Positions 1 through 13,580 of a stretch of 35,232 nucleotides of DNA are shown piece after piece. The notes under the pieces are model-generated. The model saw only the letters and a list, made by a program, of their open reading frames with translations, was not told the DNA's origin and searched no databases. Numbering within the stretch: the first letter of the stretch is position 1; each line of letters begins with the position of its first letter. Source of the DNA: Candidatus Gottesmanbacteria bacterium RIFCSPHIGHO2_02_FULL_39_11 (GTDB lineage Bacteria; Patescibacteriota; Microgenomatia; 2-02-FULL-39-11); NCBI GenBank assembly GCA_001779195.1, contig MFJL01000044.1:19199-54430 (forward strand), in the 5' to 3' direction. Both the position numbers and the translations under genes were made by a program.

Positions 1-2447
1 ATCTCCTCATTCCTCTGATTCAAAAAGGAAGATAAATCGAGGTGAGAGAGGTCAGATCTGTTAAAGCCTAATTCTTCCCCGACTTCAGCCAATAACTCGA
101 GGGCCAAACTGATATTTTTAGTAAAAGTAAATTTATATAATTCCCGCGCTTCAATAGATCTTTTGATAAACTTTAAAAGTTTTTCCCCGTCTGAATTTAT
201 TTTATGGAAACTACACGCTTTGGATATTTTGGTTATAACATGAGCATCTAATTTTCTACTGATTTGATCGATTCTCCCTGTGTCCGCCTTTTTATCTGAA
301 ATATGAATCATATCGGAATTTGAAACAAGATAAGATGCGTTTTTGCTGTACGGTAATTTAGTAATGTCAAAAGTTCCCGGCCTTAGATGGCCGTATTTCT
401 CAAGAAAACTCCCTATTTTGATTTGTTTCTTTCTAAGCTTAATAAAATCCATATCTAAATCTGTTGCAACGGTGGATATCGAAGACATAAAGAAATCAAA
501 TTCAACAGGGGAAATTATACCAAGATGTTTAAGGCTTCTAAGGAGAGCATTCCCGAAAAAAGCCATCCTGGCAGCTTGCGAAAACTGAAAAGTTCCTAAT
601 TTCCGGCAATCGTCAATTAACCGGTCAATAAAATACAATTTATCCCTCCAATTTTTCGCCAGTCTCAACTGCTTTCTGATCACGGTGTATTTTTGCCCAA
701 GCTCTTTTATATCCTTATCGTCCGTATCAAAAAAGTCGTCAGAGTGTATTAATACGTAATTGGTAAGTCTAAGTAAGGATTTTTTTAATAAATCAATCTC
801 TTTAGAACTGAATTTATCCATAAGCTCTCTTATTCTTTCTTCAAAATCAAACGTATAGCAATTGTACGCGATTTCAAATTCAATTTTGTCATGCAGCTGG
901 GGATTTTTTTTAAGCTTCTCATTATAAAACACTAAAAGTTTCTTTTTTAAATAACCAGGAATATCTTCAGGCAGAAGACTCAAAAATGAATAGCATGTAT
1001 TTATATACGGCTTGTTTCCGATGTTTACCATCAATCCTTCCGTTACTTTGGTGTATCCCAGAGGTACCAAAGCGCTGTTCCAGTTGGATTTCAGTATCAA
1101 ATAGTTGAGAAGCGAGTAATCTAAATAATTAGGTCTGTCTCCAATCAGCTCAGCCGGATTCCAAAAAGCCATATCGCTAAGAATAAGCTCTTTGGTCAAC
1201 ATGTTTTTTCCGTTTTTAATATCGGTATAACTTTTTCGGCATTCCGCGATGCTTTTCCTCACCAAGTCATCATCGATTGACAGGAATCTGGAGTTGGCCG
1301 CAAGGGGTCGGACCTGGAAGATAACAATCTGATTGTTCTTTTTAATTGCGAACTCAATATCGAGTGCAACACCGGAAAAAAATAGTTCTATTTCTTTGAT
1401 GACGGATATAAACTCCTGCCACTCCCGGTTTATTTCATGAAGAGGCAGATCACGCGCTATTTCCACTTTCTTATTCGCCATTCCCCCGGTTACTGCGTCT
1501 GTCTTCTTTCCCATTTCATCATAATTTATGAGGTAATAGGGCGTATTGGTCCCAAGATTTCGGGTAAATACAACCCCGCTTACCTTTACATCTCCGGTCT
1601 GCTCCTGCACCAAAATCTGATCCCTGTCCGAGAACCCTTCATTTTTTTTGTAGCTCTCAATTACCTCGGTAATACCGTCAGTAACTGCACTTCTGTTTTT
1701 TGAATGAATATCCAAAATACTTTTATAATGCCCTGCGTTGGAATATGCGACTGAATCCTCATTCAGACTTGAGCTTCTAATAACAATTTTTTTGTCTTTA
1801 AATAAATCGCTTATTTTATCCAGAATTCTTTCTTTATCTTTTTTCCAATCTGCCAGAATAAATACAAATTCCTTTTCAATTACCGCTTTCTTGAGCTGTG
1901 TTTTCAATTTTTTTAGCGTGTTTGCTTTTGTAGAAAAGTGCTTCTGCAATAAATCCATATTTCCTATTTTGATAGAGTTGAAGGAATAATCAGAAAGCTT
2001 TCTTTCTTCTATAAAAGAATTAAAAAACTTCTTGGCAATATTTTCCCGTGATAAATTCGGGAAGTATTTGTGGGGGACAATCTCTCCGCTGATTTGCTTA
2101 ATGACATCTGAACCGAGTATATCTCCCCACAGCAAATGACTTTGGACCAAAAGAATTTTTGCATTAGGATACTTCTTGTGAATAATTTTAAGATTTTCTG
2201 TAGGATCCATCGAATCCTGAATCATCACCTGATCTACATATAAGATTTTTTGTAGTACTGCTTTTCTTTCCTCACATGAACTGAGAAGCGGAGAGGTCCA
2301 TTTCTTTGCAACGTCATCGCTTATCACACCGCATATATGGAAATCGGCACTCTTTCTTGCTGTTTCCAGCATTTTCAAATGTCCATAATGCAGAAGATCT
2401 CCGATTAAAAAACTGTAAGCGATTTTTTTATTTCCCTTCTTGATCAT
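1..2447 (-). CDS. Cytidylyltransferase-like domain fused to PEP synthase/PPDK-like ATP-grasp protein (3' end truncated by window edge)
   Basis: Minus-strand frame starting ATG at 2447 (MIKKGNKKIAYSFLIGDLLHYGHLKMLETARK...) stays open to position 1, about 815 codons; absent from the ORF track because no stop lies in the window. N-term has HxGH (HYGH) nucleotidyltransferase motif. Middle has PPDK_N-like motifs IVIRSSSLNEDSVAYSNAG, QILVQEQTGDVKVSGVVFTRN, ALDIEFAIKKNNQIVIFQVRPL; further on KYGHLRPGTFDITKLPY as in PPS/rifampin phosphotransferase-type proteins. ATGA overlap with upstream gene. Confidence 0.85.
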   Translation of the reverse strand, partial: MIKKGNKKIAYSFLIGDLLHYGHLKMLETARKSADFHICGVISDDVAKKWTSPLLSSCEERKAVLQKILYVDQVMIQDSMDPTENLKIIHKKYPNAKILLVQSHLLWGDILGSDVIKQISGEIVPHKYFPNLSRENIAKKFFNSFIEERKLSDYSFNSIKIGNMDLLQKHFSTKANTLKKLKTQLKKAVIEKEFVFILADWKKDKERILDKISDLFKDKKIVIRSSSLNEDSVAYSNAGHYKSILDIHSKNRSAVTDGITEVIESYKKNEGFSDRDQILVQEQTGDVKVSGVVFTRNLGTNTPYYLINYDEMGKKTDAVTGGMANKKVEIARDLPLHEINREWQEFISVIKEIELFFSGVALDIEFAIKKNNQIVIFQVRPLAANSRFLSIDDDLVRKSIAECRKSYTDIKNGKNMLTKELILSDMAFWNPAELIGDRPNYLDYSLLNYLILKSNWNSALVPLGYTKVTEGLMVNIGNKPYINTCYSFLSLLPEDIPGYLKKKLLVFYNEKLKKNPQLHDKIEFEIAYNCYTFDFEERIRELMDKFSSKEIDLLKKSLLRLTNYVLIHSDDFFDTDDKDIKELGQKYTVIRKQLRLAKNWRDKLYFIDRLIDDCRKLGTFQFSQAARMAFFGNALLRSLKHLGIISPVEFDFFMSSISTVATDLDMDFIKLRKKQIKIGSFLEKYGHLRPGTFDITKLPYSKNASYLVSNSDMIHISDKKADTGRIDQISRKLDAHVITKISKACSFHKINSDGEKLLKFIKRSIEARELYKFTFTKNISLALELLAEVGEELGFNRSDLSHLDLSSFLNQRNEE

Positions 2448-3193
2448 CTTTTATACTTTCTAAGAAACTTAAAGGTTGCGTACTTATTTTCTAGTTTTAA
2501 GTTGGAATAATAAAGAGAAAATATCAGATATAAAAATAGGAGCCGCAGCAAGATGAAAAAACCGAATATAATATAGGTGACGTGCAGTATATTAAAAAAT
2601 ATTCCTATAAGTAAATAATATTTGGCGGTAAAAAATACAGAATAAATAAGATTAGAGGGGATAAGCATATTTTTAAGAAAATTATCAGCGAACGATTTTC
2701 TGTATGTGAATAATTTATAAAGCTGCTCATTTCCTGCGGCAAAGTCTAGTCCAAATTCAGAGTTTAATTTCTGCCCCAGCATATTCGCCATCGACTGTCC
2801 CAATAATGGAAGCAAAGCCAAATACTTCCAGTTCTCACCGCTATACTGTATGAGGATATGAAGCGTAATGCTAAAAAGAATGATCATTTGAGTCAGGGGA
2901 TCAAAACCGTTTTCCATCCATTCACCTAACTTAGACTGCATATTTTTTTTCCTTGCTAATCCTCCGTCTAAAACATCAAAAAAAGTGTTGATTACGATAA
3001 TAAACAAGGCCAACATATTATTCCAAAATCCCCCAAGAAAAAATAAGTAAGCCAGAATCGGCGTAAAAATTATAAAATTCAAAAAAGTGATTTGATTTGG
3101 CGTGATAGTTGATTTTGACAGTACCGTAACGAATGGATCCGCTACTATCCTGAATACGGCTATCATAAAATCGTTTGTTCTTCGTTTTTTCAT
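2444..3193 (-). CDS. CDP-alcohol phosphatidyltransferase family membrane protein
   Basis: Motif DVLDGGLARKKNMQSKLGEWMENGFD matches CDP-alcohol phosphotransferase DxxDGxxARx8GxxxDxxxD with D3 replaced by E; multiple TM segments. Confidence 0.88.
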   Translation of the reverse strand: MKKRRTNDFMIAVFRIVADPFVTVLSKSTITPNQITFLNFIIFTPILAYLFFLGGFWNNMLALFIIVINTFFDVLDGGLARKKNMQSKLGEWMENGFDPLTQMIILFSITLHILIQYSGENWKYLALLPLLGQSMANMLGQKLNSEFGLDFAAGNEQLYKLFTYRKSFADNFLKNMLIPSNLIYSVFFTAKYYLLIGIFFNILHVTYIIFGFFILLRLLFLYLIFSLYYSNLKLENKYATFKFLRKYKR

Positions 3194-3197
3194 ATCG

Positions 3198-3932
3198 TTA
3201 TGATTTGTCCGCTTTTATCCAGATAAAAGCCGAGAAATTTTTTATTAGGGGAGTTTTGACCAATAATTTGTTCAGAGATATAATCGGAGGAATAATAGTA
3301 CCGACCCGGGATGGAATAACGGCATATCTTTCCAGGATAATATTTTTGAAGCCGCTAAGATGAAGTAAATTCTTCAGTTTTTTCGGAGTGCTGTTTAAAA
3401 ACTCCTTCTCCACTTCCCATCTGCCTGTATCTGTTCCGGTTATTTCCTTAAGTAAATACCAGGGATAGTATAAAAGACAAAAGGGGTTTGGCTCAATAAT
3501 TGCAATCTTACCTCCTCTTTTTAATGCAGAATGGATATTCTTCATAATCAAAAGCTTGGTATCAGGATTCAGATGATGAATTATATTGCAGCAAATTGCG
3601 ATATCAAATTTATTTCTGAATTCCGGTTTTTCCAAACTGGTTTTCTTCAGTGTCAAGTTTTTTATTAAATTTTCTTTTCTTGCTATATGTGCAATCTCCG
3701 TTATATTTTTTTCCGCTATCTCGGTACCCGTCACTTCGTACCCTTTTTTCAGTAGAGGGATGGTCAGCCTCCCTCCGCCGCATCCCACATCCAGTATTTT
3801 TGTTTTTCCGAGCAAATTAATAAAATTAAAAAAGTTTTCAAGCTCTATTATTGCTGGCACAGTCATTTTTGTACGGGCTATATCATATGCTTCCTTATTC
3901 CAATATTTTTCCTGCCTGGTATTATGATTCAT
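3198..3932 (-). CDS. Class I SAM-dependent methyltransferase
   Basis: KILDVGCGGGRLTIPLLKKGYEVTGTEIAEK motif I; NIIHHLNPD; GGKIAIIEPNPF. Confidence 0.88.
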   Translation of the reverse strand: MNHNTRQEKYWNKEAYDIARTKMTVPAIIELENFFNFINLLGKTKILDVGCGGGRLTIPLLKKGYEVTGTEIAEKNITEIAHIARKENLIKNLTLKKTSLEKPEFRNKFDIAICCNIIHHLNPDTKLLIMKNIHSALKRGGKIAIIEPNPFCLLYYPWYLLKEITGTDTGRWEVEKEFLNSTPKKLKNLLHLSGFKNIILERYAVIPSRVGTIIPPIISLNKLLVKTPLIKNFSAFIWIKADKS

Positions 3933-3977: not shown

Positions 3978-5117
3978 TCAGTAGCAATTTACAATAGCCG
4001 TTACATTTTTTTCGCTGAATTTTTTCAATGCATACAGTCTAGATGATTTTGTCATCTGATTGAGTAAAACTTTGTCATGATACAGCTTTTTAATTGCATT
4101 ACCAATTTCAACCGGTTCAGGATTAACCAAAAATCCAACAGATTTATCCATAAGGGAAGGAATCGCTCCCAAGTTTGAACCTATTACAGGAGTTCCGCAC
4201 GCAAAAGATTCTACAACAGTTCGTGCGGCATTTTCAGAATACCGGGACGGGATAACAAACACATCTGCCGCGGCATAATATTCCCGTAATTTTTCATACT
4301 CCATCCCTTCGATAAACAGTATATTCCTGCTATTTTTACTCTCGTTTCTTAAAACATCAACCATCGGCCCGTCCCTGGAAATAAAAACAAAAGTGATATC
4401 CATTTTTTGCAGCCTTTTTGATGCGTCTATCACTATATCGGCTCCTTTTATTTTTATAGCTCGTGCAACAAACAAAACGATAAAATTGGACGGAAGATTC
4501 AAATTCCTTTTTGCCAGCTTTTTATTTAACGGTTTAAACATATCCAGATCGACCCATTCTACAAAGGTAGTTATCTTATTTTCCGGAATGCCGATTCCCA
4601 CTAATTCTTTTTTAGACGCCTCACTTTCGGCGATTACGTGGTCTGCGCGGGAAAGTGTCCATGAAACCACTCTCGCAAAAAGGGAGCCGGGCTGAAAATC
4701 ATACAGAGACATAATACTTGCTACCGCACGCTTCCTGAATAAATATCTGAAGATAACGGCGATGAAAGAACTATTAAGCCCCTGTGCATCAATAACATCA
4801 ATTTTCTTATGATTCCACAGCATCCACCAGAAAGAACGGATGAATAAATAAGGAGTTATATAGGCAAACAGAAACAGAGGATATTTTTCAAGCTTGTGAA
4901 ACCAATTATCTCCTATCCACTGGAAACGCCGTATTTCCAGATTTTTTCCTTTTTCTAAGGATTCTCCTTTTTGATTGCCGGAAATGGGCTGGTAGGTCAA
5001 AACATAGACGAAATAGTTTCGCTTTCTGAGTGCCTCCGTCAGCTCATTGGCGTATGTTTCTGCGCCTCCTACATTCGGCCTGAAAACAAATGTTAGAATT
5101 AAAACTTTTTTAATCAC
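3978..5117 (-). CDS. Glycosyltransferase family 4 (GT-B)
   Basis: Likely GTG start at 5117 (VIKKVLILTFVFRPNVGGAETYANELTEAL) giving a GTGA overlap with the upstream stop; ESFACGTPVIGSNLGAIPSLM typical GT4 C-term. ORF track extends to 5216 but the extra N-term overlaps the upstream CDS. Confidence 0.88.
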   Translation of the reverse strand: MIKKVLILTFVFRPNVGGAETYANELTEALRKRNYFVYVLTYQPISGNQKGESLEKGKNLEIRRFQWIGDNWFHKLEKYPLFLFAYITPYLFIRSFWWMLWNHKKIDVIDAQGLNSSFIAVIFRYLFRKRAVASIMSLYDFQPGSLFARVVSWTLSRADHVIAESEASKKELVGIGIPENKITTFVEWVDLDMFKPLNKKLAKRNLNLPSNFIVLFVARAIKIKGADIVIDASKRLQKMDITFVFISRDGPMVDVLRNESKNSRNILFIEGMEYEKLREYYAAADVFVIPSRYSENAARTVVESFACGTPVIGSNLGAIPSLMDKSVGFLVNPEPVEIGNAIKKLYHDKVLLNQMTKSSRLYALKKFSEKNVTAIVNCY

Positions 5118-7681
5118 AGTAAGCGAGAAGATTTCAACTTTATAAGATAAACCGATGCAATAATCAGTGTAAGAATCGAAACGGCAGTGCCGCCATAGAC
5201 TAGCCGTTGAGGCCAATATTCTATGACTAATTCAATTTCATAACTCCCGTCTGAGTTTTTTAGACACAGATTTGATGTTTTTGGATTCTTTTTCTGTGAA
5301 CATAGATCATTAGGATCAATTATCCAGCTATTGGCAAAACCATTTACTTTCAGATGATTCTTCTCATCTAATAATTTTCTAAACCATGTTTCCAATAAGA
5401 ATCCGTCGGGTAAATTATTATTTTGTATTGTATACTGAAAATTCTTGGATATAAAGTCAATCCTATTTTTGCTGCCCTCTAAAGCAGATACCCATCCTTT
5501 GTCCAGAAAACCTTCCAGCTCATTCTTATTTGCCTGATCTTCAAGATTTCTTTCTTCAGGTTTATAATTTTCCAGATTTATTTTTGGATTTTGGATTTTG
5601 TCCGCCGGTTGGCGGATTGGATTTACTATGTATGCTTTCCATCCGTTATCATAAGACTCAGAAAAAATAAGAGGGAAAACACTCTTTGCCTGATGAACTC
5701 TTATTCTTAATTTGGTTGGGTTAACTGACTTATATTCTAATATCGGCTGTTCGGCAAACTCTTCCGGAAGGATTTCCTTTTTTTCTTTTCCTGAATTATC
5801 TTTGGAAAAATAAATAGCGGATGAAACTCCATAATCCAGCTGCGAAGCCACCTGGAGCAAATGATCAGACGTCTCTTCAGAAAAGAAAATTTTCTTCGGT
5901 GTATATATATAGGGAACAGAAAGAGAGGGATCAATTTTATAAAATTTAAGATAGCTTAATTCCTTCACACGTTTTATTTTATGATCATCCGTCTGCGTTT
6001 CAATTTTTTTAAGGCTGGAGTAGAGGAAAGAATTGCTGTCCCTGCTGCTATCGGTTACTATATAGCTGATGTTGAAAAGTGGAAAAACTTTTAACAATAC
6101 ATTGAGATCATCATACGTATAATCCGTTAAGCCGAAGGGAAGAGTTACCATGGTGGGATAGTTGAAAATCCTTGAAAGCATAAAATCAGTACCGTATCCC
6201 CAAAAATGACTTGTTCCCTTACTTCCGTCAGGAGTGAATGGAAAAAGAATTATTCTGCCTGATTTTTTTTCTTTCTGAAGCCAATCTCCGGCAATAAAGT
6301 AATCTTCAGGAATTTTTATATGCTTCGATTTTAAAATTCCCCTTTCGCCTTGTATTATGTCTCCTGTCCAAAATGGTAACGCATTGATTATAAAAAAGAT
6401 AATAAAGACTAAGAAAAGAAAAAATATGCTTACTATCTTCCCGCCTTTATTTTCAACCTTGATATACATATGGGAAATAGTCCACCCGAAAAGAATGGAA
6501 TATCCAAATACAAGAACGGTTCCGAATTTTTCGTACTGTGAGCGAAACATGCTAAATCCGGGAATGGAGAAAAAAAGCCATCTATTGAATTGTCCAAACG
6601 GCTCATGAACGCCTTTTACAAGAAAAAGTGCCATTAATGAAAGAAAAGAAAAAAAAAGCAGGAGACCTTTTATTTTTCTCTCTATTTTCTTCATAAAAAA
6701 AGAAATAAAGAGTATTAAGGGAACCGTCAGAGATATAAGTTCTAAAGGAACAGAAAGGTATTTCTGGAAAACCCCCGGGTAGTAAGGGTCTCCTTGCCAT
6801 TGGTCTTTCAGTGCCCAAAACCCCATGAGTCTAAAAATATTAAAAAAACTTGTATCCAGACTATTTACTTCTGTTGTTTCACCAAAGCTTTTAATACCGG
6901 AGGTGACTTTAAAAGTGTCTTTATACTCTCGGCTTATATCATGTATATAAGGGAATACAAGCCAAGCGTTTAAAAAAACAACAAGCAAAATGAATTGAAA
7001 AGTAAATAATAGGGAGTGTTTGAATTTATTTCTGTCCCAGTATAATAAATTATGAAAAATAAAATAGAAAAAAAGGACAATAAATATCAACAATGGATAG
7101 GTAGGAGTAGTAGATGAAGGAGCTACAAGGAAAAAAGTGATAGCTCCGGCAAAAGCATATAATAATCCCTTACGAGATTCCAAACCTTTCATATAGAACA
7201 ACAGACTAAGAGGCAGGAAAATATATGCAAACATAGACTGAAGCTGGTTTGGCCATTTGAAAAAGAGAGTATACGTATTAAACATGTAAAAAAGTGATGC
7301 AACAAAAGCAGCAAGATCATGCGTTTTGCTGCTACGAAAAGCATACCTAACCAGAAAAAACATGGTCAGTCCGGAAATGGACAGGATAAGGTAAAAAAAT
7401 ATTTTTTCCAGCGTAAAAAGAGATAAACCTACCATACTTCCAAATGCAACTAATAATTCATAGGGGAAAACCTCTGCTATACCTTTGGACGGTATTCCCA
7501 GTCCGTTTCCTACAAATCGGTCCCAGACGTATAAATCGTTTACCAATTCATTCACGGGGCGGAAAGGAGGTTTAAAATCTCCAGCATAAATCAGATGGTC
7601 TTTTTTAAACCATAAAAAAGTTACACAAGCCAATAATAAAATAGCAGATATAAAGAAAACCGGGATTAATTTTTTTCTCAT
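5114..7681 (-). CDS. Large polytopic membrane protein, GT-C-like / YfhO- or DUF3367 arabinofuranosyltransferase-like
   Basis: 855 aa, about a dozen hydrophobic TM segments then a large extracytoplasmic C-terminal region and a final TM; N-term GDFKPPFRPVNELVNDLYVWD resembles bacterial GT-C-like membrane proteins. Confidence 0.6.
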   Translation of the reverse strand: MRKKLIPVFFISAILLLACVTFLWFKKDHLIYAGDFKPPFRPVNELVNDLYVWDRFVGNGLGIPSKGIAEVFPYELLVAFGSMVGLSLFTLEKIFFYLILSISGLTMFFLVRYAFRSSKTHDLAAFVASLFYMFNTYTLFFKWPNQLQSMFAYIFLPLSLLFYMKGLESRKGLLYAFAGAITFFLVAPSSTTPTYPLLIFIVLFFYFIFHNLLYWDRNKFKHSLLFTFQFILLVVFLNAWLVFPYIHDISREYKDTFKVTSGIKSFGETTEVNSLDTSFFNIFRLMGFWALKDQWQGDPYYPGVFQKYLSVPLELISLTVPLILFISFFMKKIERKIKGLLLFFSFLSLMALFLVKGVHEPFGQFNRWLFFSIPGFSMFRSQYEKFGTVLVFGYSILFGWTISHMYIKVENKGGKIVSIFFLFLVFIIFFIINALPFWTGDIIQGERGILKSKHIKIPEDYFIAGDWLQKEKKSGRIILFPFTPDGSKGTSHFWGYGTDFMLSRIFNYPTMVTLPFGLTDYTYDDLNVLLKVFPLFNISYIVTDSSRDSNSFLYSSLKKIETQTDDHKIKRVKELSYLKFYKIDPSLSVPYIYTPKKIFFSEETSDHLLQVASQLDYGVSSAIYFSKDNSGKEKKEILPEEFAEQPILEYKSVNPTKLRIRVHQAKSVFPLIFSESYDNGWKAYIVNPIRQPADKIQNPKINLENYKPEERNLEDQANKNELEGFLDKGWVSALEGSKNRIDFISKNFQYTIQNNNLPDGFLLETWFRKLLDEKNHLKVNGFANSWIIDPNDLCSQKKNPKTSNLCLKNSDGSYEIELVIEYWPQRLVYGGTAVSILTLIIASVYLIKLKSSRLL

Positions 7682-8763
7682 AAAAGTTTTATTTCTTCAA
7701 GTTTATCCAGAATCGTTTTTCCCGCTAAGCCGTTCCCAAACGGGTGTTTCCAGGTCTTTTTCTTTTTCAGCATCTTATCTACCGAATCAAGAATACCATT
7801 CGGAGAGACGCCTGCTAATATATTGCCTCCTGCTTCTATCGTTTCCGGCCTTTCCGTATTATTCCTTAACGTAACACAGGGAATCTGGAGAATACAGCTT
7901 TCTTCTTGTATGCCTCCGGAATCAGTCAGAATAAGCTTGGCATTAACCTCCAAAGTCAGAAAATCCAAATATCCGACGGGATTAATCATTCGAATTGCTG
8001 AATCAACGGTCAATTTGAATTCCTGTATTTTTTTTCGTGTTCTTGGATGGATGGGACAAACAGCAGGAAAATTATACTTTTTAGCGACTAATTTCAAACC
8101 ACTCAATATACCTATTAGCCTTTTTTTATCATTTGCATTTTCCTCCCGATGGACTGTGACTAAAAAATATTTCGTTTTTGCTAATCCGTAATTTTCCAAT
8201 ATTTTTGATCTCTTTTTCGCCAGAATAAGATTCTGATAAACAGCATCAACCACAGTATTTCCTGTAACATAAATTTTGTTTTGTGGTATACCCTCATCTA
8301 ACAAGATACTTCTTGCTTTATCAGTAGGCGCAAATAAAAAATCGGAAATATGATCTGTAATAATTCTATTTATTTCTTCCGGCATTCGCCTAGAATAAGA
8401 ACGCAGTCCTGCTTCGATATGAGCGACTTTAATGTGAAGTTTTGAAGCAGCAAGAGCTCCTGCCAGAACAGTGTTGGTGTCGCCTTCAACAACAGCAACA
8501 TCCGGCGCTTCTCTTAAAAGTACTTCCTCTATTCCGATCAGGAGCTTTGCAGTCTGAATAGCATGTGTAGCGGAGCCTACTTTTAAATTGTATCGCGGTT
8601 GAGGGAGCTTCAGCTCTTCAAAAAAAACTTTATCAAGATTTGCAGAATAATGCTGGTTGGTATGTAAAATAAAAAAGTCGGTTTTACGCTTCTCACACTC
8701 CCGAATAAGGGAACTCATTTTTATAATCTCGGGTCTGGTACCAAGAATAATGCAGATTTTCAT
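7678..8763 (-). CDS. wecB: UDP-N-acetylglucosamine 2-epimerase (non-hydrolysing)
   Basis: MKICIILGTRPEIIKMSSLIRECE, VVEGDTNTVLAGALAASKLHIKVAHIEAGLRSYSRRMPEEINRIITDHISDFLFAPT, LTDSGGIQEESCILQIPCVTLRNNTERPETIEAGGN: full-length WecB family signature. Confidence 0.95.
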   Translation of the reverse strand: MKICIILGTRPEIIKMSSLIRECEKRKTDFFILHTNQHYSANLDKVFFEELKLPQPRYNLKVGSATHAIQTAKLLIGIEEVLLREAPDVAVVEGDTNTVLAGALAASKLHIKVAHIEAGLRSYSRRMPEEINRIITDHISDFLFAPTDKARSILLDEGIPQNKIYVTGNTVVDAVYQNLILAKKRSKILENYGLAKTKYFLVTVHREENANDKKRLIGILSGLKLVAKKYNFPAVCPIHPRTRKKIQEFKLTVDSAIRMINPVGYLDFLTLEVNAKLILTDSGGIQEESCILQIPCVTLRNNTERPETIEAGGNILAGVSPNGILDSVDKMLKKKKTWKHPFGNGLAGKTILDKLEEIKLL

Positions 8764-9920
8764 GAATTTTCAATAAATTTTATCTCTTGCAGAGCTATCT
8801 TTTTCCAATCAAATTGTTTTACGTATTTAAATCCCATTTTACCTTGAGAAATTGATAGATTTCTATTACTTAAATATTTAATTATTTCTCCAGCAAAAAA
8901 ATCTTTATCCCCAATAGGAATATGAACGAAGTTTTTCTTCCAAACCATAACCAGTTCCGGCAGATTGTAAGCTAAAACAGGCAAGCCACAGGCCATGGCT
9001 TCTCCTATTACAATAGCCCAATTCTCCTCGTAGCTTGGTAAAACAAAAAGTTTGCTTTTCTTTAACTCAGAAAACTTTTTTTTCTGATCTAATATTAGAC
9101 CTCTCAGAAAAATATTTTTTTCGAGTTTAAATTCTCTAATTTTCTTTTTCATCTCAGCCTCGAGAGGACCAGTACCTATTATGATTAGGCGGGCAGTTTT
9201 TATCTTATGAACAACCATTCTCCAAATATCTACCAGATCAAGCATTCCTTTGCCTTCCTCTAATCTTTTTATACAAACGGCTTCATATTGCTCTTGGTTA
9301 ATACTCTCGGTAAATTGCTGAATTTTATCGAAATTTACTCCGCATAATACCGTTTTATACCTGGCTTTTTGGATACCTACATCTTTGAGTTGATTAGCCG
9401 TGCTTTCTGAAACCGGCAATATTATATCCGCAAGCCTCTTTACTAAAAAGAATCCGCTTCTTTGCAAAAGTAAAAAGGCAAGCGCGAAAAAAAAATTGGA
9501 GCGTCTCTTCCACCAAACCAGTGGAGGCAGCCAGTGGACGACGCAAGCCCACTTAATCTTATCCTTATTTATTATTTTTAAAAAGGCAGCAGGAAAAACA
9601 TTGGTAAAACCCTCAGTCGGAGTATACACAATGCCTTTAAATTTCCATAATGACTTGGGAGGAAAAATGAGTCTTGATATCAAGAGAATATAGGTACTTT
9701 TATTCTGATTATCTACTTTGAGAGTGAAACTTTTGTGAAAAAAGTACTTGATTTTATACCCATCAAAAAGCTCTTTACCAGCCAAACCAGACCACAGATG
9801 TATCTGGTAACCTGATAAACTCCAATTCCTCACTATTTCTGCAAGACGAATTTCATTACCGGATACACCGCTTAATTTATTTCGGAAAGAAATGTTAAAA
9901 ATAATCAATATCTTCTTCAT
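8760..9920 (-). CDS. Glycosyltransferase family 4 (GT-B)
   Basis: Start at internal Met (MKKILIIFNISFRNKLSGVSGNEIRLAEIV) avoids overlap with the upstream CDS ending at 9928; GEAMACGLPVLAYNLPELV GT4 signature. Confidence 0.85.
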   Translation of the reverse strand: MKKILIIFNISFRNKLSGVSGNEIRLAEIVRNWSLSGYQIHLWSGLAGKELFDGYKIKYFFHKSFTLKVDNQNKSTYILLISRLIFPPKSLWKFKGIVYTPTEGFTNVFPAAFLKIINKDKIKWACVVHWLPPLVWWKRRSNFFFALAFLLLQRSGFFLVKRLADIILPVSESTANQLKDVGIQKARYKTVLCGVNFDKIQQFTESINQEQYEAVCIKRLEEGKGMLDLVDIWRMVVHKIKTARLIIIGTGPLEAEMKKKIREFKLEKNIFLRGLILDQKKKFSELKKSKLFVLPSYEENWAIVIGEAMACGLPVLAYNLPELVMVWKKNFVHIPIGDKDFFAGEIIKYLSNRNLSISQGKMGFKYVKQFDWKKIALQEIKFIENS

Positions 9921-9927
9921 ATCAGAT

Positions 9928-11610
9928 TTACTTTGTAAGAACTGCTTCAAAAAGTCTGTAAAACCCTGCAAAACGGTCAATTTTAGTGAATCTTAAGACA
10001 AGAAGCGAGATCTTAATAAGCTTATTGCGTTTGAGCGCTGAAGGCATATAGTCTTGAAAAATCTTATCAGAATAGCACAGGGTTTTTAAGGAAACTATAT
10101 TAAATTTTTGCTTTTTCATGAATTGAGTAAAACTTGCTAACGTAAAGAAATTCAACCAGTATTTGTATTCTTTTATTTTATGAAAAAAAAGTTTATAGAT
10201 GAAATTTTCCAATAATAAGTGACTATTTTCGTTGTCTCCTATAAAAAGATATCCGTCAGGCTTTAATATTCTTCTGACTTCCTTCATAAAAATATTTGGG
10301 TTTTTGATATCTACTAAAACAGCATCTATATTGATAACGTCAAAAAAATCATCGGGATATCCTGCACAGGTGAGCTCTCCGTGAAACATTTTCAAAGGAA
10401 AACCCTTTTCCCGTGCAATTCTACAGGCATTTTCTGAAACCTCTACTCCAAAAACACGGAAGCCTTCCTTTTGCGCTAATTGAAGAAGATCTCCTGTGGA
10501 ACAGCCGATATCCAAAAAAGTCTTATTTGAAGACTCCCGAAGGAACTTTTTGATCAGTCCGATTTTATATTTTTTCAATACCGCACGATTCTCTTCGCGC
10601 TCTTTTATATCTTTCAATTTATAGTGACCATAATCTTCATCTGAATAGACGTCTTTAACTTCTGATTCGACAAAATCAAGAGAGTTGTTGTAAAGCATAC
10701 CGCAGTTAGAACATCGAACTACTTCAGCATATTCATCTTTTAAAATTACTTCTATTTTTTCCACTCTCCCTTTCCTAGACGAACAAATGAAACAAACTCT
10801 CGTTTTTTTTGCTTGAGTACTAATAAATTTTCGTTTAATTTCAGTAAAGAAATATCTGATGCAGAGAATAGGAAAATCCCTTATTCTAGGTATACCGTAA
10901 TGTTTTCCAAAGCTTGAAAGTTTAATAATCTTAAATCCCGGTGAATTTATTTTTTCTATAGATTTGGAAAATGTAGGGATAAGAAGTTTACTTATTAATT
11001 TTGCAACTTCTTCGTAAGAATGACAATTTCTGATATCAGCACGTTCTTCATAAAACAAGCTGCCTTTATCCAGTCCCTCATTTAATTTTTGAACTGATAT
11101 ATTTATGTATTTTTCGTTGTGTAAATATGCTTCCAAAGTAGAAGAGAAACCGCGATATTTTCTTAAATCTCCTGTGTGGTAACTTAAAACACCTGCCGGG
11201 GTACATCTTAATATTTCACCCTGTAATATGCCAAAACCGCGCCGGAAGACAAGATCAATCTTCTTAGTTTTAATTTTCTTTATAGTTTCTTCGGGTAAAG
11301 CGGTACCGTGTTTTCCTGATTTGATAGCAGAACTGTAATAAATTTCACTTTTATTAAATAAACTCAAATTATTGATTGATATTCTTTCAGCTAATTCTAT
11401 CTGCCATCCGATAATGTCTCTTATCAGAGTAATTATTTTTTGTATAAATTTTTTTTGAAAAGATAAATCATAGTCTTTAACATGCACTTTTTTGATGATT
11501 ACTAGAGGGATAGAAATATTATTTTCCGATACGGCTTTTTGAAGCGCCAGAGCTACCCACTTCATTATTTTAGGTTCATCCAGTAATAAACATATTTTTT
11601 TAACTTTCAT
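9928..11610 (-). CDS. Fusion: formyltransferase-like N-terminal domain + zinc-ribbon class I SAM methyltransferase C-terminal domain
   Basis: N-term KKIDLVFRRGFGILQGEILRCTPAGVLSYHTGDLRKYRGFSSTLEAYLHNE...GLDKGSLFYEERADI resembles the formyltransferase fold (H and D catalytic positions retained). C-term CFIC...CSNCGMLYNN zinc ribbon then TFLDIGCSTGDLLQLAQKEGFRVFGVEVSENA. Confidence 0.8.
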   Translation of the reverse strand: MKVKKICLLLDEPKIMKWVALALQKAVSENNISIPLVIIKKVHVKDYDLSFQKKFIQKIITLIRDIIGWQIELAERISINNLSLFNKSEIYYSSAIKSGKHGTALPEETIKKIKTKKIDLVFRRGFGILQGEILRCTPAGVLSYHTGDLRKYRGFSSTLEAYLHNEKYINISVQKLNEGLDKGSLFYEERADIRNCHSYEEVAKLISKLLIPTFSKSIEKINSPGFKIIKLSSFGKHYGIPRIRDFPILCIRYFFTEIKRKFISTQAKKTRVCFICSSRKGRVEKIEVILKDEYAEVVRCSNCGMLYNNSLDFVESEVKDVYSDEDYGHYKLKDIKEREENRAVLKKYKIGLIKKFLRESSNKTFLDIGCSTGDLLQLAQKEGFRVFGVEVSENACRIAREKGFPLKMFHGELTCAGYPDDFFDVINIDAVLVDIKNPNIFMKEVRRILKPDGYLFIGDNENSHLLLENFIYKLFFHKIKEYKYWLNFFTLASFTQFMKKQKFNIVSLKTLCYSDKIFQDYMPSALKRNKLIKISLLVLRFTKIDRFAGFYRLFEAVLTK

Positions 11611-11617
11611 AGTTTTA

Positions 11618-12721
11618 CTACTTCGTAACAGCTTTTTTTATCAATGTGATTATTTTATCAACTATGCTAAGCGATAAAGTAGAATAAATCGGCAGACAAA
11701 GAATACTGTTGGCGATATCCTTTGCAACTCTTAGATCACCTGCAGCTTTTTTTGCAACAGAATTCTTGTAAATAAAGTCAAAATCCGAGGTCAGCGGATA
11801 AAAATACTTCCTTGCTTTAATATGATGATTGAGTAGATATTTAAAAACCCGATCCCGTGTTTTCTTACTACTAAAACAAACCGGCATATAGGAATAGTTA
11901 TATAAAGAAGCAGTCAATTTTTGAAATTTGAGTGAAGGAATATCTCCCAGTTCTTTCACATATCTATTATAAATTTTTTCTCGCAACGAGATATTTTTAT
12001 CTACTGCTTTTAAATTACACAGACCCATGACAGCCTGGAATTCGTTCATCTTAGCGTTTATACCCGGCAGAGTTATTCTTTCCTCTGAAAGAATGCCAAA
12101 ATCTTTTAACAATTCAAGCTTCTCTGATATTTTTTGATCCCTGGCAATAACAGCTCCTCCTTCTATCGTGTGAAATATTTTAGTCGCGTGAAAGCTTAGC
12201 GTGGAGATATCCCCGTATCTTAGAATTGGTTTCCCGTTATAGTGGACGCCAAACGCGTGGGCTGCGTCATATATGATTCTGATTTTATATTTCCTGCCTA
12301 TAGTTTCCAGTCTAACAACATCACAGGGATTGCCATATACATGCACTGCCAGAATAGCGGAAGTTTTTTTTGTAATTTTTTTCTCTGCATCTTCCGGACT
12401 TAAGTTAAACGTATGCGGATTTATATCGGCAAAAACGGGGACTGCACCCCCCCATAAAATTGCGTTTGTGGTTGCGGCAAAGGTAAACGGAGTTGTAATA
12501 ATCTCACCGTGAAGATCCAAAGCTTTTATGGATAACTGAAGAGCTAACGTACCATTGGCAACTAATGAAATGTTTTTTACACCCAAATATTTTGACAGCT
12601 GTGAGGTTAGTAATTGAACATGTTCTCCGTTGTTTGTCACCCAGCCGGACAGCCATATTTTTTTAAGATATTTGTTGTATATGCTTAGACTCGGTAAATC
12701 AGTTTTGGTGACGTTTATCAT
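11618..12721 (-). CDS. DegT/DnrJ/EryC1/StrS family sugar-nucleotide aminotransferase
   Basis: IWLSGWVTNNGEHVQLLTSQLSKYLGVKNISLVANGTLALQLSIKAL; IIYDAAHAFGVHYNGKPILRYGDISTLSFHATKIFHTIEGGAV with PLP lysine. Confidence 0.93.
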   Translation of the reverse strand: MINVTKTDLPSLSIYNKYLKKIWLSGWVTNNGEHVQLLTSQLSKYLGVKNISLVANGTLALQLSIKALDLHGEIITTPFTFAATTNAILWGGAVPVFADINPHTFNLSPEDAEKKITKKTSAILAVHVYGNPCDVVRLETIGRKYKIRIIYDAAHAFGVHYNGKPILRYGDISTLSFHATKIFHTIEGGAVIARDQKISEKLELLKDFGILSEERITLPGINAKMNEFQAVMGLCNLKAVDKNISLREKIYNRYVKELGDIPSLKFQKLTASLYNYSYMPVCFSSKKTRDRVFKYLLNHHIKARKYFYPLTSDFDFIYKNSVAKKAAGDLRVAKDIANSILCLPIYSTLSLSIVDKIITLIKKAVTK

Positions 12722-12728
12722 TTTCAGA

Positions 12729-13580
12729 TTATAACCTATGCTCCTCGTTTTTTAATCGTCCGGCAATCCGGATTAGGGAATAATTCGCTCCGACAAGAAA
12801 TTTAAGCACGAACACCGCAAACATAAAATGAGGGTATCGTATCCATTTTTTCCATTTTCCGTTTTCCGTAAAAACATCAAAATACCTGTACTTCAAACCC
12901 AGCTGTTTACGGATAATGGGATCATCCCTGCCCCATTTTTTAATATATTTTAAAATATCCTGCGCGTAATATGCCTTTTTCTTAAGGTATTTCTTAAAAC
13001 TAAAGTTTCTCTCGCTATGGAACAAGACGGACGCGGTGACTGTTGTTTTTCCTATCGCTGCTAATCTTCTATCCAGATCCCAATCTTCAGCGGCTATTAA
13101 AGACTCATCGAAACCTCCCAGTTCTTGCCATATTTTTTTAGGAAAAAATCTTACGCAATCGATAACCGTTCCGTTATAAAAACTTCTTTCAAAATTCCTG
13201 ACTTTCCCCCAAAAGGAATTGCCGGTCATAATCTCAGGAATGTAGAGACCGGCAAAAATGCCGTCGCTTATCCGTTCCACACAATCCTCTATCAGTTTCG
13301 GAGATAAGCTCATATCGGCATCAAGAAACATGACATAGTTTCCCTTTGCCTTTTTTATTCCGAAATTTCTTTGAGCTGAACGTTCCGGGCCTTTGTTAAA
13401 AACAGAATCCGTATATGTCTTTGCAATTTCCACTGTCTTATCTGTCGAATTATTATCGACAACAATAATTTCTATTTTCTGTTCCGGATACGTTTGGTTT
13501 TTTATTGATTCCAGGCATCTCCCGATGTTTTTCTCTTCGTTTTTGGTAGTAATTACGACAGAAACAGAATTTTTTATCAT
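12729..13580 (-). CDS. Glycosyltransferase family 2
   Basis: SVSVVITTKNEEKNIGRCLESIKNQTYPEQKIEIIVVDNNSTDKT; YVMFLDADMSLSP; FDESLIAAEDWDLDRRL. Confidence 0.92.
   Translation of the reverse strand: MIKNSVSVVITTKNEEKNIGRCLESIKNQTYPEQKIEIIVVDNNSTDKTVEIAKTYTDSVFNKGPERSAQRNFGIKKAKGNYVMFLDADMSLSPKLIEDCVERISDGIFAGLYIPEIMTGNSFWGKVRNFERSFYNGTVIDCVRFFPKKIWQELGGFDESLIAAEDWDLDRRLAAIGKTTVTASVLFHSERNFSFKKYLKKKAYYAQDILKYIKKWGRDDPIIRKQLGLKYRYFDVFTENGKWKKWIRYPHFMFAVFVLKFLVGANYSLIRIAGRLKNEEHRL

Follow-up and report, generated by a model that had tools for sequence, protein, structure and literature searches.

At the edge of a 35,232-nucleotide stretch of DNA from Candidatus Gottesmanbacteria bacterium RIFCSPHIGHO2_02_FULL_39_11 (hereafter the window; C44:19199-54430 of a 1.55-Mb bacterial genome, G000), a single minus-strand frame joins an HxGH nucleotidyltransferase domain to a protein resembling PEP synthase and PPDK. 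The original prediction was of a bifunctional enzyme that phosphorylates an alcohol and then activates it as a CDP derivative, and the question is therefore which group the kinase part phosphorylates and which compound, if any, the HxGH domain activates. No statement on a fusion of an HxGH domain with a glutamine kinase was found in the open-licence literature.

The fusion gene and the scaffold gap

The frame runs from position 2447 to position 3 with an ATG start and is stop-free over 815 codons up to the window edge, as originally described. By Pfam, residues 17-100 are CTP_transf_like (PF01467; 44.7 bits, cutoff 21) and residues 140-327 are PPDK_N (54.9 bits, cutoff 27); the quoted motifs HYGH (20-23), RSS (224-226), EQ, SGVVFT, DIEF and FQVRP are all present. 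The frame leaves the window because base 1 adjoins a scaffold gap of 23 N rather than a natural gene end, which places the gap inside the fusion gene. Beyond it, a PEP-utiliser mobile domain of 121 residues is encoded on the minus strand and carries the catalytic-His motif GGAGSHMAIR. It is the C-terminal phospho-His domain that the original prediction had proposed to look for past the edge, of the swivelling type, and contains YGGAGSHMAIRCAEFGIPAAVG. These 121 residues match positions 669-786 of the PRK05849 model (171 bits), and residues 164-814 ahead of the gap match positions 4-639 of the same model; by these profile matches the gene is a single PRK05849 kinase with an N-terminal extension of ~160 residues, split by the gap. 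Comparison with relatives (L033-L035) indicates about 9 to 28 hidden codons, the 23-N count being a scaffolder's estimate only through which the frame does not run. Coordinates are collected in Table 1.

The gap at the window edge could suggest that two genes were fused by chance or by the assembly, the latter of which the original prediction had itself named as a way for it to fail; however, the gap lies at the gene's other end and not between the two domains, and the same fused frame recurs in 28 other loci from several bacterial and archaeal phyla, by which an assembly fusion is ruled out. At least 25 unrelated contigs carry an unbroken HxGH-through-kinase frame (that of L056 and L066 is disrupted, and L036 lies at a contig end), so the arrangement of the two domains in the order given reflects neither chance nor misassembly, and the probability left to such an origin is negligible.

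Table 1. Features of the fusion gene and its surroundings (window positions unless prefixed C44)
Feature	Position	Strand	Remarks
Fusion gene, first 815 codons	1..2447	-	continues past the gap into C44:18812-19174, outside the window
HxGH cytidylyltransferase-like domain	2030..2447	-	residues 1-139, HYGH at 20-23; Pfam, conserved residues, AlphaFold2, Foldseek
Inter-domain linker	1959..2029	-	residues 140-163; modelled with low confidence in relative L033
PRK05849 kinase part	1..1958	-	residues 164-815; ATP-grasp and family-specific helical middle domain; NF004508, PPDK_N, invariant columns
Scaffold gap	C44:19176-19198		23 N, abutting window base 1
Phospho-His domain of the fusion gene	C44:18812-19174	-	121 residues, outside the window
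Amidotransferase, Cj1417-like	C44:18110-18805		outside the window; best NCBIfam model gamma-glutamyl-CDP-amidate hydrolase
GT-A NTP transferase/cytidylyltransferase, Cj1416-like, intact	C44:17336-18106		outside the window; two genes downstream of the fusion
Formyltransferase-like protein	C44:15951-16745		outside the window; just beyond the three-gene set
CDP-alcohol phosphatidyltransferase family membrane protein	2444..3193	-	PF01066, 54.2 bits
SAM methyltransferase	3198..3932	-	next in the same gene run
Surface-glycan cluster, upstream	3978..13580	-	glycosyltransferases, UDP-GlcNAc 2-epimerase, DegT aminotransferase, GT2 and the two proteins below
855-aa protein without Pfam match	5114-7681		in the glycan cluster
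560-aa formyltransferase-then-methyltransferase fusion	9928-11610		relatives near the three-gene set in L039 and L066

The kinase part and the predicted phosphoramidate pathway

Few enzymes are known to form P–N bonds in biology; for the glutamine-kinase route, the steps were elucidated in Campylobacter. There, Cj1418, earlier annotated as PEP synthase/PPDK, acts as an L-glutamine kinase (PMC10971088; PMC6429109), and starting from Gln, ATP and CTP, Cj1415-Cj1418 together produce CDP-phosphoramidate 3'-phosphate (PMC11800397). From residue 164 onward, the fusion protein scores 571.4 bits against NF004508 (PRK05849; cutoff 501) despite its truncation at the gap, and the ATP-grasp motifs of the kinase (RSS..ED, DIEF, FQVRP) accompany the C-terminal phospho-His motif. 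A C-terminal PEP/pyruvate-binding barrel, as in PEP synthase and PPDK, is absent, the gene stopping after the mobile domain; PEP synthase models score far below cutoff on the fusion kinase, and the rifampin phosphotransferase model NF041857 reaches 27 bits against a cutoff of 999, matching through the mobile domain only. The model of the full-length relative L033 (pLDDT 86.2, with low confidence in the linker at 148-170) has rifampin phosphotransferase 5hv1 as its best whole-length fold match (E 7.6e-22), in line with the PEP-synthase/PPDK-like phosphotransferase first proposed. Rifampin phosphotransferase (5hv1/5fbs) shares with L033 the ATP-grasp, substrate and phospho-His domains, but its substrate domain is another one and it has no HxGH domain; the modelled match thus supports the earlier mechanistic analogy at about 13% identity.

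PRK05849 proteins on plasmids usually occur in a set of three genes, these being the kinase, a class-I amidotransferase and a GT-A 'phosphocholine cytidylyltransferase'; in an Azospirillum record the latter two lie 4 kb off on the other strand, and a Cupriavidus record is without both. The set recurs in the scanned genomes as well as on plasmids, and γ-glutamyl-CDP-amidate hydrolase is always the best NCBIfam model for the amidotransferases scanned, at 75-127 bits and below the equivalog cutoff of 250. That of the host likewise scores 80.6 bits against NF045546, below the cutoff of 250, yet this is its best model. Kinase and amidotransferase form one protein in one human-gut contig and 23 further loci, and a Pacearchaeota locus has the amidotransferase fused to the GT-A enzyme; these fusions tie the three functions together. 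Because of the PRK05849 membership and a three-gene set matching cj1418-cj1417-cj1416, the phosphorylated group is most likely the amide nitrogen of glutamine and not an alcohol, so that this element of the original prediction gives way to glutamine.

The locus is alike to Cj1418/Cj1417/Cj1416 of C. jejuni, which serve an O-methyl phosphoramidate capsule, in its PEP-synthase-like kinase, amidotransferase and cytidylyltransferase within a glycan cluster, a likeness drawn from the PRK05849 profile, the gene set and published descriptions of Cj1418. It differs in its host, in the extra N-terminal HxGH domain and in the CDP-alcohol transferase gene overlapping the fusion gene; a Cj1415-like kinase was not found in the host genome by a weak search. 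There is a good likelihood that the gene encodes a Cj1418-type L-glutamine kinase and that its operon supplies a surface glycan with a CDP-activated phosphoramidate, an estimate which takes in the kinase and the pathway and excludes the substrate of the HxGH domain. The fusion kinase would phosphorylate the amide nitrogen of L-glutamine, presumably through a histidine relay as in the PEP-synthase family; a cytidylyltransferase, likely the separate GT-A protein, would couple the product to CMP to give CDP-glutamine; and the adjacent class-I amidotransferase would hydrolyse this to CDP-NH2 and glutamate. These three steps are established for the Campylobacter homologues, and by analogy are predicted for the host operon. 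CDP activation, as originally proposed, is thus retained for the pathway, but its assignment to the HxGH domain is not, as the Campylobacter step belongs to a separate GT-A enzyme whose homologue lies two genes downstream of the fusion; in the accessible part of the published account, the CTP step is assigned to the GT-A-type Cj1416 and not to an HxGH domain.

In a final step, a glycan hydroxyl would receive the phosphoramidate; the CDP-alcohol phosphatidyltransferase family protein encoded by the overlapping gene may catalyse this transfer. The start codon of the fusion gene overlaps the stop of this gene (ATGA), and the motif DVLDGGLAR...GEWMENGFD of its product carries Glu at the third Asp position; it is a candidate phosphoramidate transferase by parallel with the reaction of its family. 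The glycan genes surrounding the fusion gene are consistent with a surface-glycan setting. A comparable setting is described, in the accessible part of the source, for the glycoconjugate region of the cobalt Borg, an archaeal element with O-methyl-phosphoramidate-type genes among glycan genes, but the fusion described there joins PEP mutase to a cytidylyltransferase and not an HxGH domain to a glutamine kinase (PMC12660748).

Just beyond the three-gene set lies a formyltransferase-like protein, seen in the host and in L033, L042, L043, L097, L109 and L112 across several phyla. In its catalytic region, HVHPGLLP or HIHPG, a His takes the place of the Asn usual in formyltransferases. In L033 and the host genome, the next three genes follow in the same order (a ~200 aa protein, the formyltransferase-like protein and a 335-aa-type protein).

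The HxGH domain and its possible substrates

The AlphaFold2 model of the HxGH domain (pLDDT 86.4, pTM 0.79) has a Rossmann-like fold, and Foldseek assigns a probability of 1.00 to many members of the HxGH cytidylyltransferase superfamily, with the phosphonate cytidylyltransferase of Fom1 top-ranked, ahead of HldC and the glycerol-3-P and choline-P cytidylyltransferases; the fold check proposed at the outset therefore favors the original assignment. Fom1 (5x3d) is also the best single-domain match of the HxGH family profile, at 78.0 bits over positions 5-138, compared with 58.5 bits for the better half of the ethanolamine-P enzyme and 64 bits or less for any single phospho-alcohol domain. The pattern ADLxHxGH...Q...D...NL...HGDDW is shared by the HxGH domain, Fom1 and PepM-linked cytidylyltransferases, the latter including those near two loci. 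Fom1 differs in that its cytidylyltransferase is fused to PEP mutase, whereas that of the host is fused to a glutamine-kinase-type protein; identity is about 23%, and the RTxGIST-type end differs. On this modelling the HxGH domain has a genuine cytidylyltransferase fold, and its nearest counterparts activate phosphorus compounds that are not esters.

Across the HxGH set, residues of catalytic type are retained (D17, H20, G22, H23, D44, E60, R61, D72, Q77, N85 and S133); for H20, H23, E60, R61 and S133 this holds in at least 28 of the 29 sequences. Of the RTxGIST motif found in classic phospho-alcohol cytidylyltransferases, the domain conserves only the Ser (S133), which makes its choice of NTP uncertain. 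Known specificities score poorly, with 36 bits for glycerol-3-phosphate cytidylyltransferase (TIGR01518, cutoff 165.4) and 41 bits for the HldE-type heptose-1-P adenylyltransferase (TIGR02199, cutoff 181.5). Judged by its conserved residues, the domain is probably active as a nucleotidyltransferase, most likely dependent on CTP and acting on a second phosphorus-containing substrate.

Substitution of the HxGH domain for the GT-A cytidylyltransferase can be ruled out, as an amidotransferase and a separate GT-A enzyme are found wherever the contig is long enough (27/28 HxGH tree rows, these being 27 loci and the window, whose own pair lies just outside it; the exception is L036). The 29 invariant residues that the GT-A enzymes share are preserved in the HxGH-fusion operons, and the HxGH domain is therefore an addition to the known pathway. 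The architecture is new and the pathway known, with one added, conserved and predicted catalytic domain.

What this domain adds is a matter of weighing several readings. A tentative one, held at somewhat under an even chance, is that it activates a P–N compound, either N-phosphoglutamine or free phosphoramidate, and so provides a second, HxGH-type route to CDP-phosphoramidate; if true, a P–N-activating HxGH cytidylyltransferase would be a new specificity, and would reside in the same polypeptide as the kinase forming the P–N bond. It is almost as likely that the domain instead serves a separate phospho-alcohol branch such as CDP-glycerol and is fused to the glutamine kinase for co-regulation only. 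The HS:1 capsule locus of Campylobacter does have a glycerol-3-P cytidylyltransferase gene beside its phosphoramidate genes (PMC11924219), and the close fold matches include glycerol-3-P enzymes, but the better fit of the profile to Fom1 and the shortfall against TIGR01518 (cutoff 165) speak against such a branch.

The domain could also be non-catalytic, scaffolding or regulating the kinase in the manner of an eroded GT-A-like domain found in another branch of the family, where the LAAGxGxRM...PK signature has been lost; the incomplete RTxGIST motif and the intact GT-A enzyme always nearby where the contig allows agree with this, but the near-invariance of His20, His23, Glu60, Arg61 and Ser133 is unexpected for a dead enzyme, making this reading unlikely. 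Poorly compatible with the gene neighborhood is the scheme in which the kinase phosphorylates an alcohol, the HxGH domain converts that phospho-alcohol to a CDP-alcohol and the adjacent CDP-alcohol transferase uses it. The overlap of the two genes, the inclusion of glycerol-3-P, choline-P and ethanolamine-P enzymes in the HxGH fold and the fold shared by the kinase and rifampin phosphotransferase would all fit, but PRK05849 kinases neighbor a gamma-Glu-CDP-amidate-hydrolase-like amidotransferase and a GT-A enzyme with or without the HxGH domain, and besides the host genome a CDP-alcohol transferase gene lies directly at the kinase in L102 only; the scheme is accordingly given very little probability. 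On an Agrobacterium plasmid, such a gene lies about 2 kb downstream.

Distribution and other architectures

Scanning one genome per species gave 80 loci, and the HxGH domain accompanies the kinase in 28 of them, not counting the host locus. These fall in Bacteroidota, Desulfuromonadales, Halanaerobium, Synergistota, Lachnospiraceae, Gastranaerophilales, one alphaproteobacterium, one gammaproteobacterium and several archaeal lineages; Halanaerobium polyolivorans is among the carriers. As the HxGH label needs five changes on the kinase tree compared to about 24 with shuffled labels, the tree indicates an old HxGH-kinase architecture that was for the most part passed on whole, apart from losses or transfers. 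No other such gene was detected in 59 relatives of the host (PRK05849 model) or in 380 genomes of its phylum (whole protein) at the thresholds used, and the gene of the host therefore looks horizontally acquired. In the host genome neither the bacterial nor the archaeal SSU rRNA model finds a match; a tmRNA scoring above cutoff identifies the host as bacterial. The three-gene core itself occurs in Woesearchaeota and other archaea, Nitrosopumilus, Omnitrophota, Gastranaerophilales, Synergistota and Bacteroidota, and on plasmids of Vibrio and Agrobacterium; because it spans so many bacterial and archaeal lineages as well as plasmids, surfaces decorated with phosphoramidate may occur much more widely than the structures on record indicate.

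In the separate branch mentioned above, a GT-A-like domain with an eroded signature (ILGAG in place of LAAGxGxRM) is N-terminal to the kinase (L028, L029, L097, L098, L103-L105, L107-L110 and L112), and an intact separate GT-A enzyme is nearby in 10/12 loci. The kinase-amidotransferase fusions, in which the amidotransferase is C-terminal, comprise 24 loci, mainly of Lachnospiraceae (L026, L060, L062-L065, L067-L075, L080-L087 and L096, not every number in these ranges being included). The GT-A enzyme is absent from the fetched stretch in 24/24 of these, and a search of 12 whole genomes gave no close GT-A enzyme, the best partial matches reaching at most 50 bits compared with 397 and 592 bits in two HxGH-carrying Lachnospiraceae genomes. 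Several have housekeeping neighbors (recA, RNase Y, proC, DAHP synthase). Phosphoglutamine may be cleaved by these proteins to free phosphoramidate, or activated in some other way; together, the HxGH fusions and the kinase-amidotransferase fusions without a cytidylyltransferase found yield assayable predictions on the fate of phosphoglutamine.

Several further observations concern individual loci. L026 (MT837632.1) is labelled 'Bacteriophage sp.'; by eye, its ORFs include housekeeping types (thioredoxin-reductase-, phosphoribosyl-pyrophosphate-synthetase- and MurC-like), and the record resembles a piece of a bacterial chromosome of faecal-metagenome origin. In L078 (12000-14003), a GT-A NTP transferase is fused to a serine hydroxymethyltransferase domain. 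On the Agrobacterium vitis plasmid pRvVAT039a (L032, 7824-12913), a LysE exporter and a CDP-alcohol phosphatidyltransferase come after the three genes, with an aminoacyl-tRNA-ligase-related protein and a dioxygenase nearby; this locus looks like a small-molecule phosphoramidate cluster. A protein of ~426 aa without Pfam match lies near the three-gene set in 12 loci, of which 8 have the HxGH fusion (L034, L038-L041, L047, L050, L058, L066, L079, L097 and L103; for example L041:16369-17646), and is a further candidate phosphoramidate transferase. Residue 167 of the GT-A enzyme is Arg in 27/27 HxGH-fusion operons and Gln in 19/22 others, which may mark a specificity residue or ancestry only.
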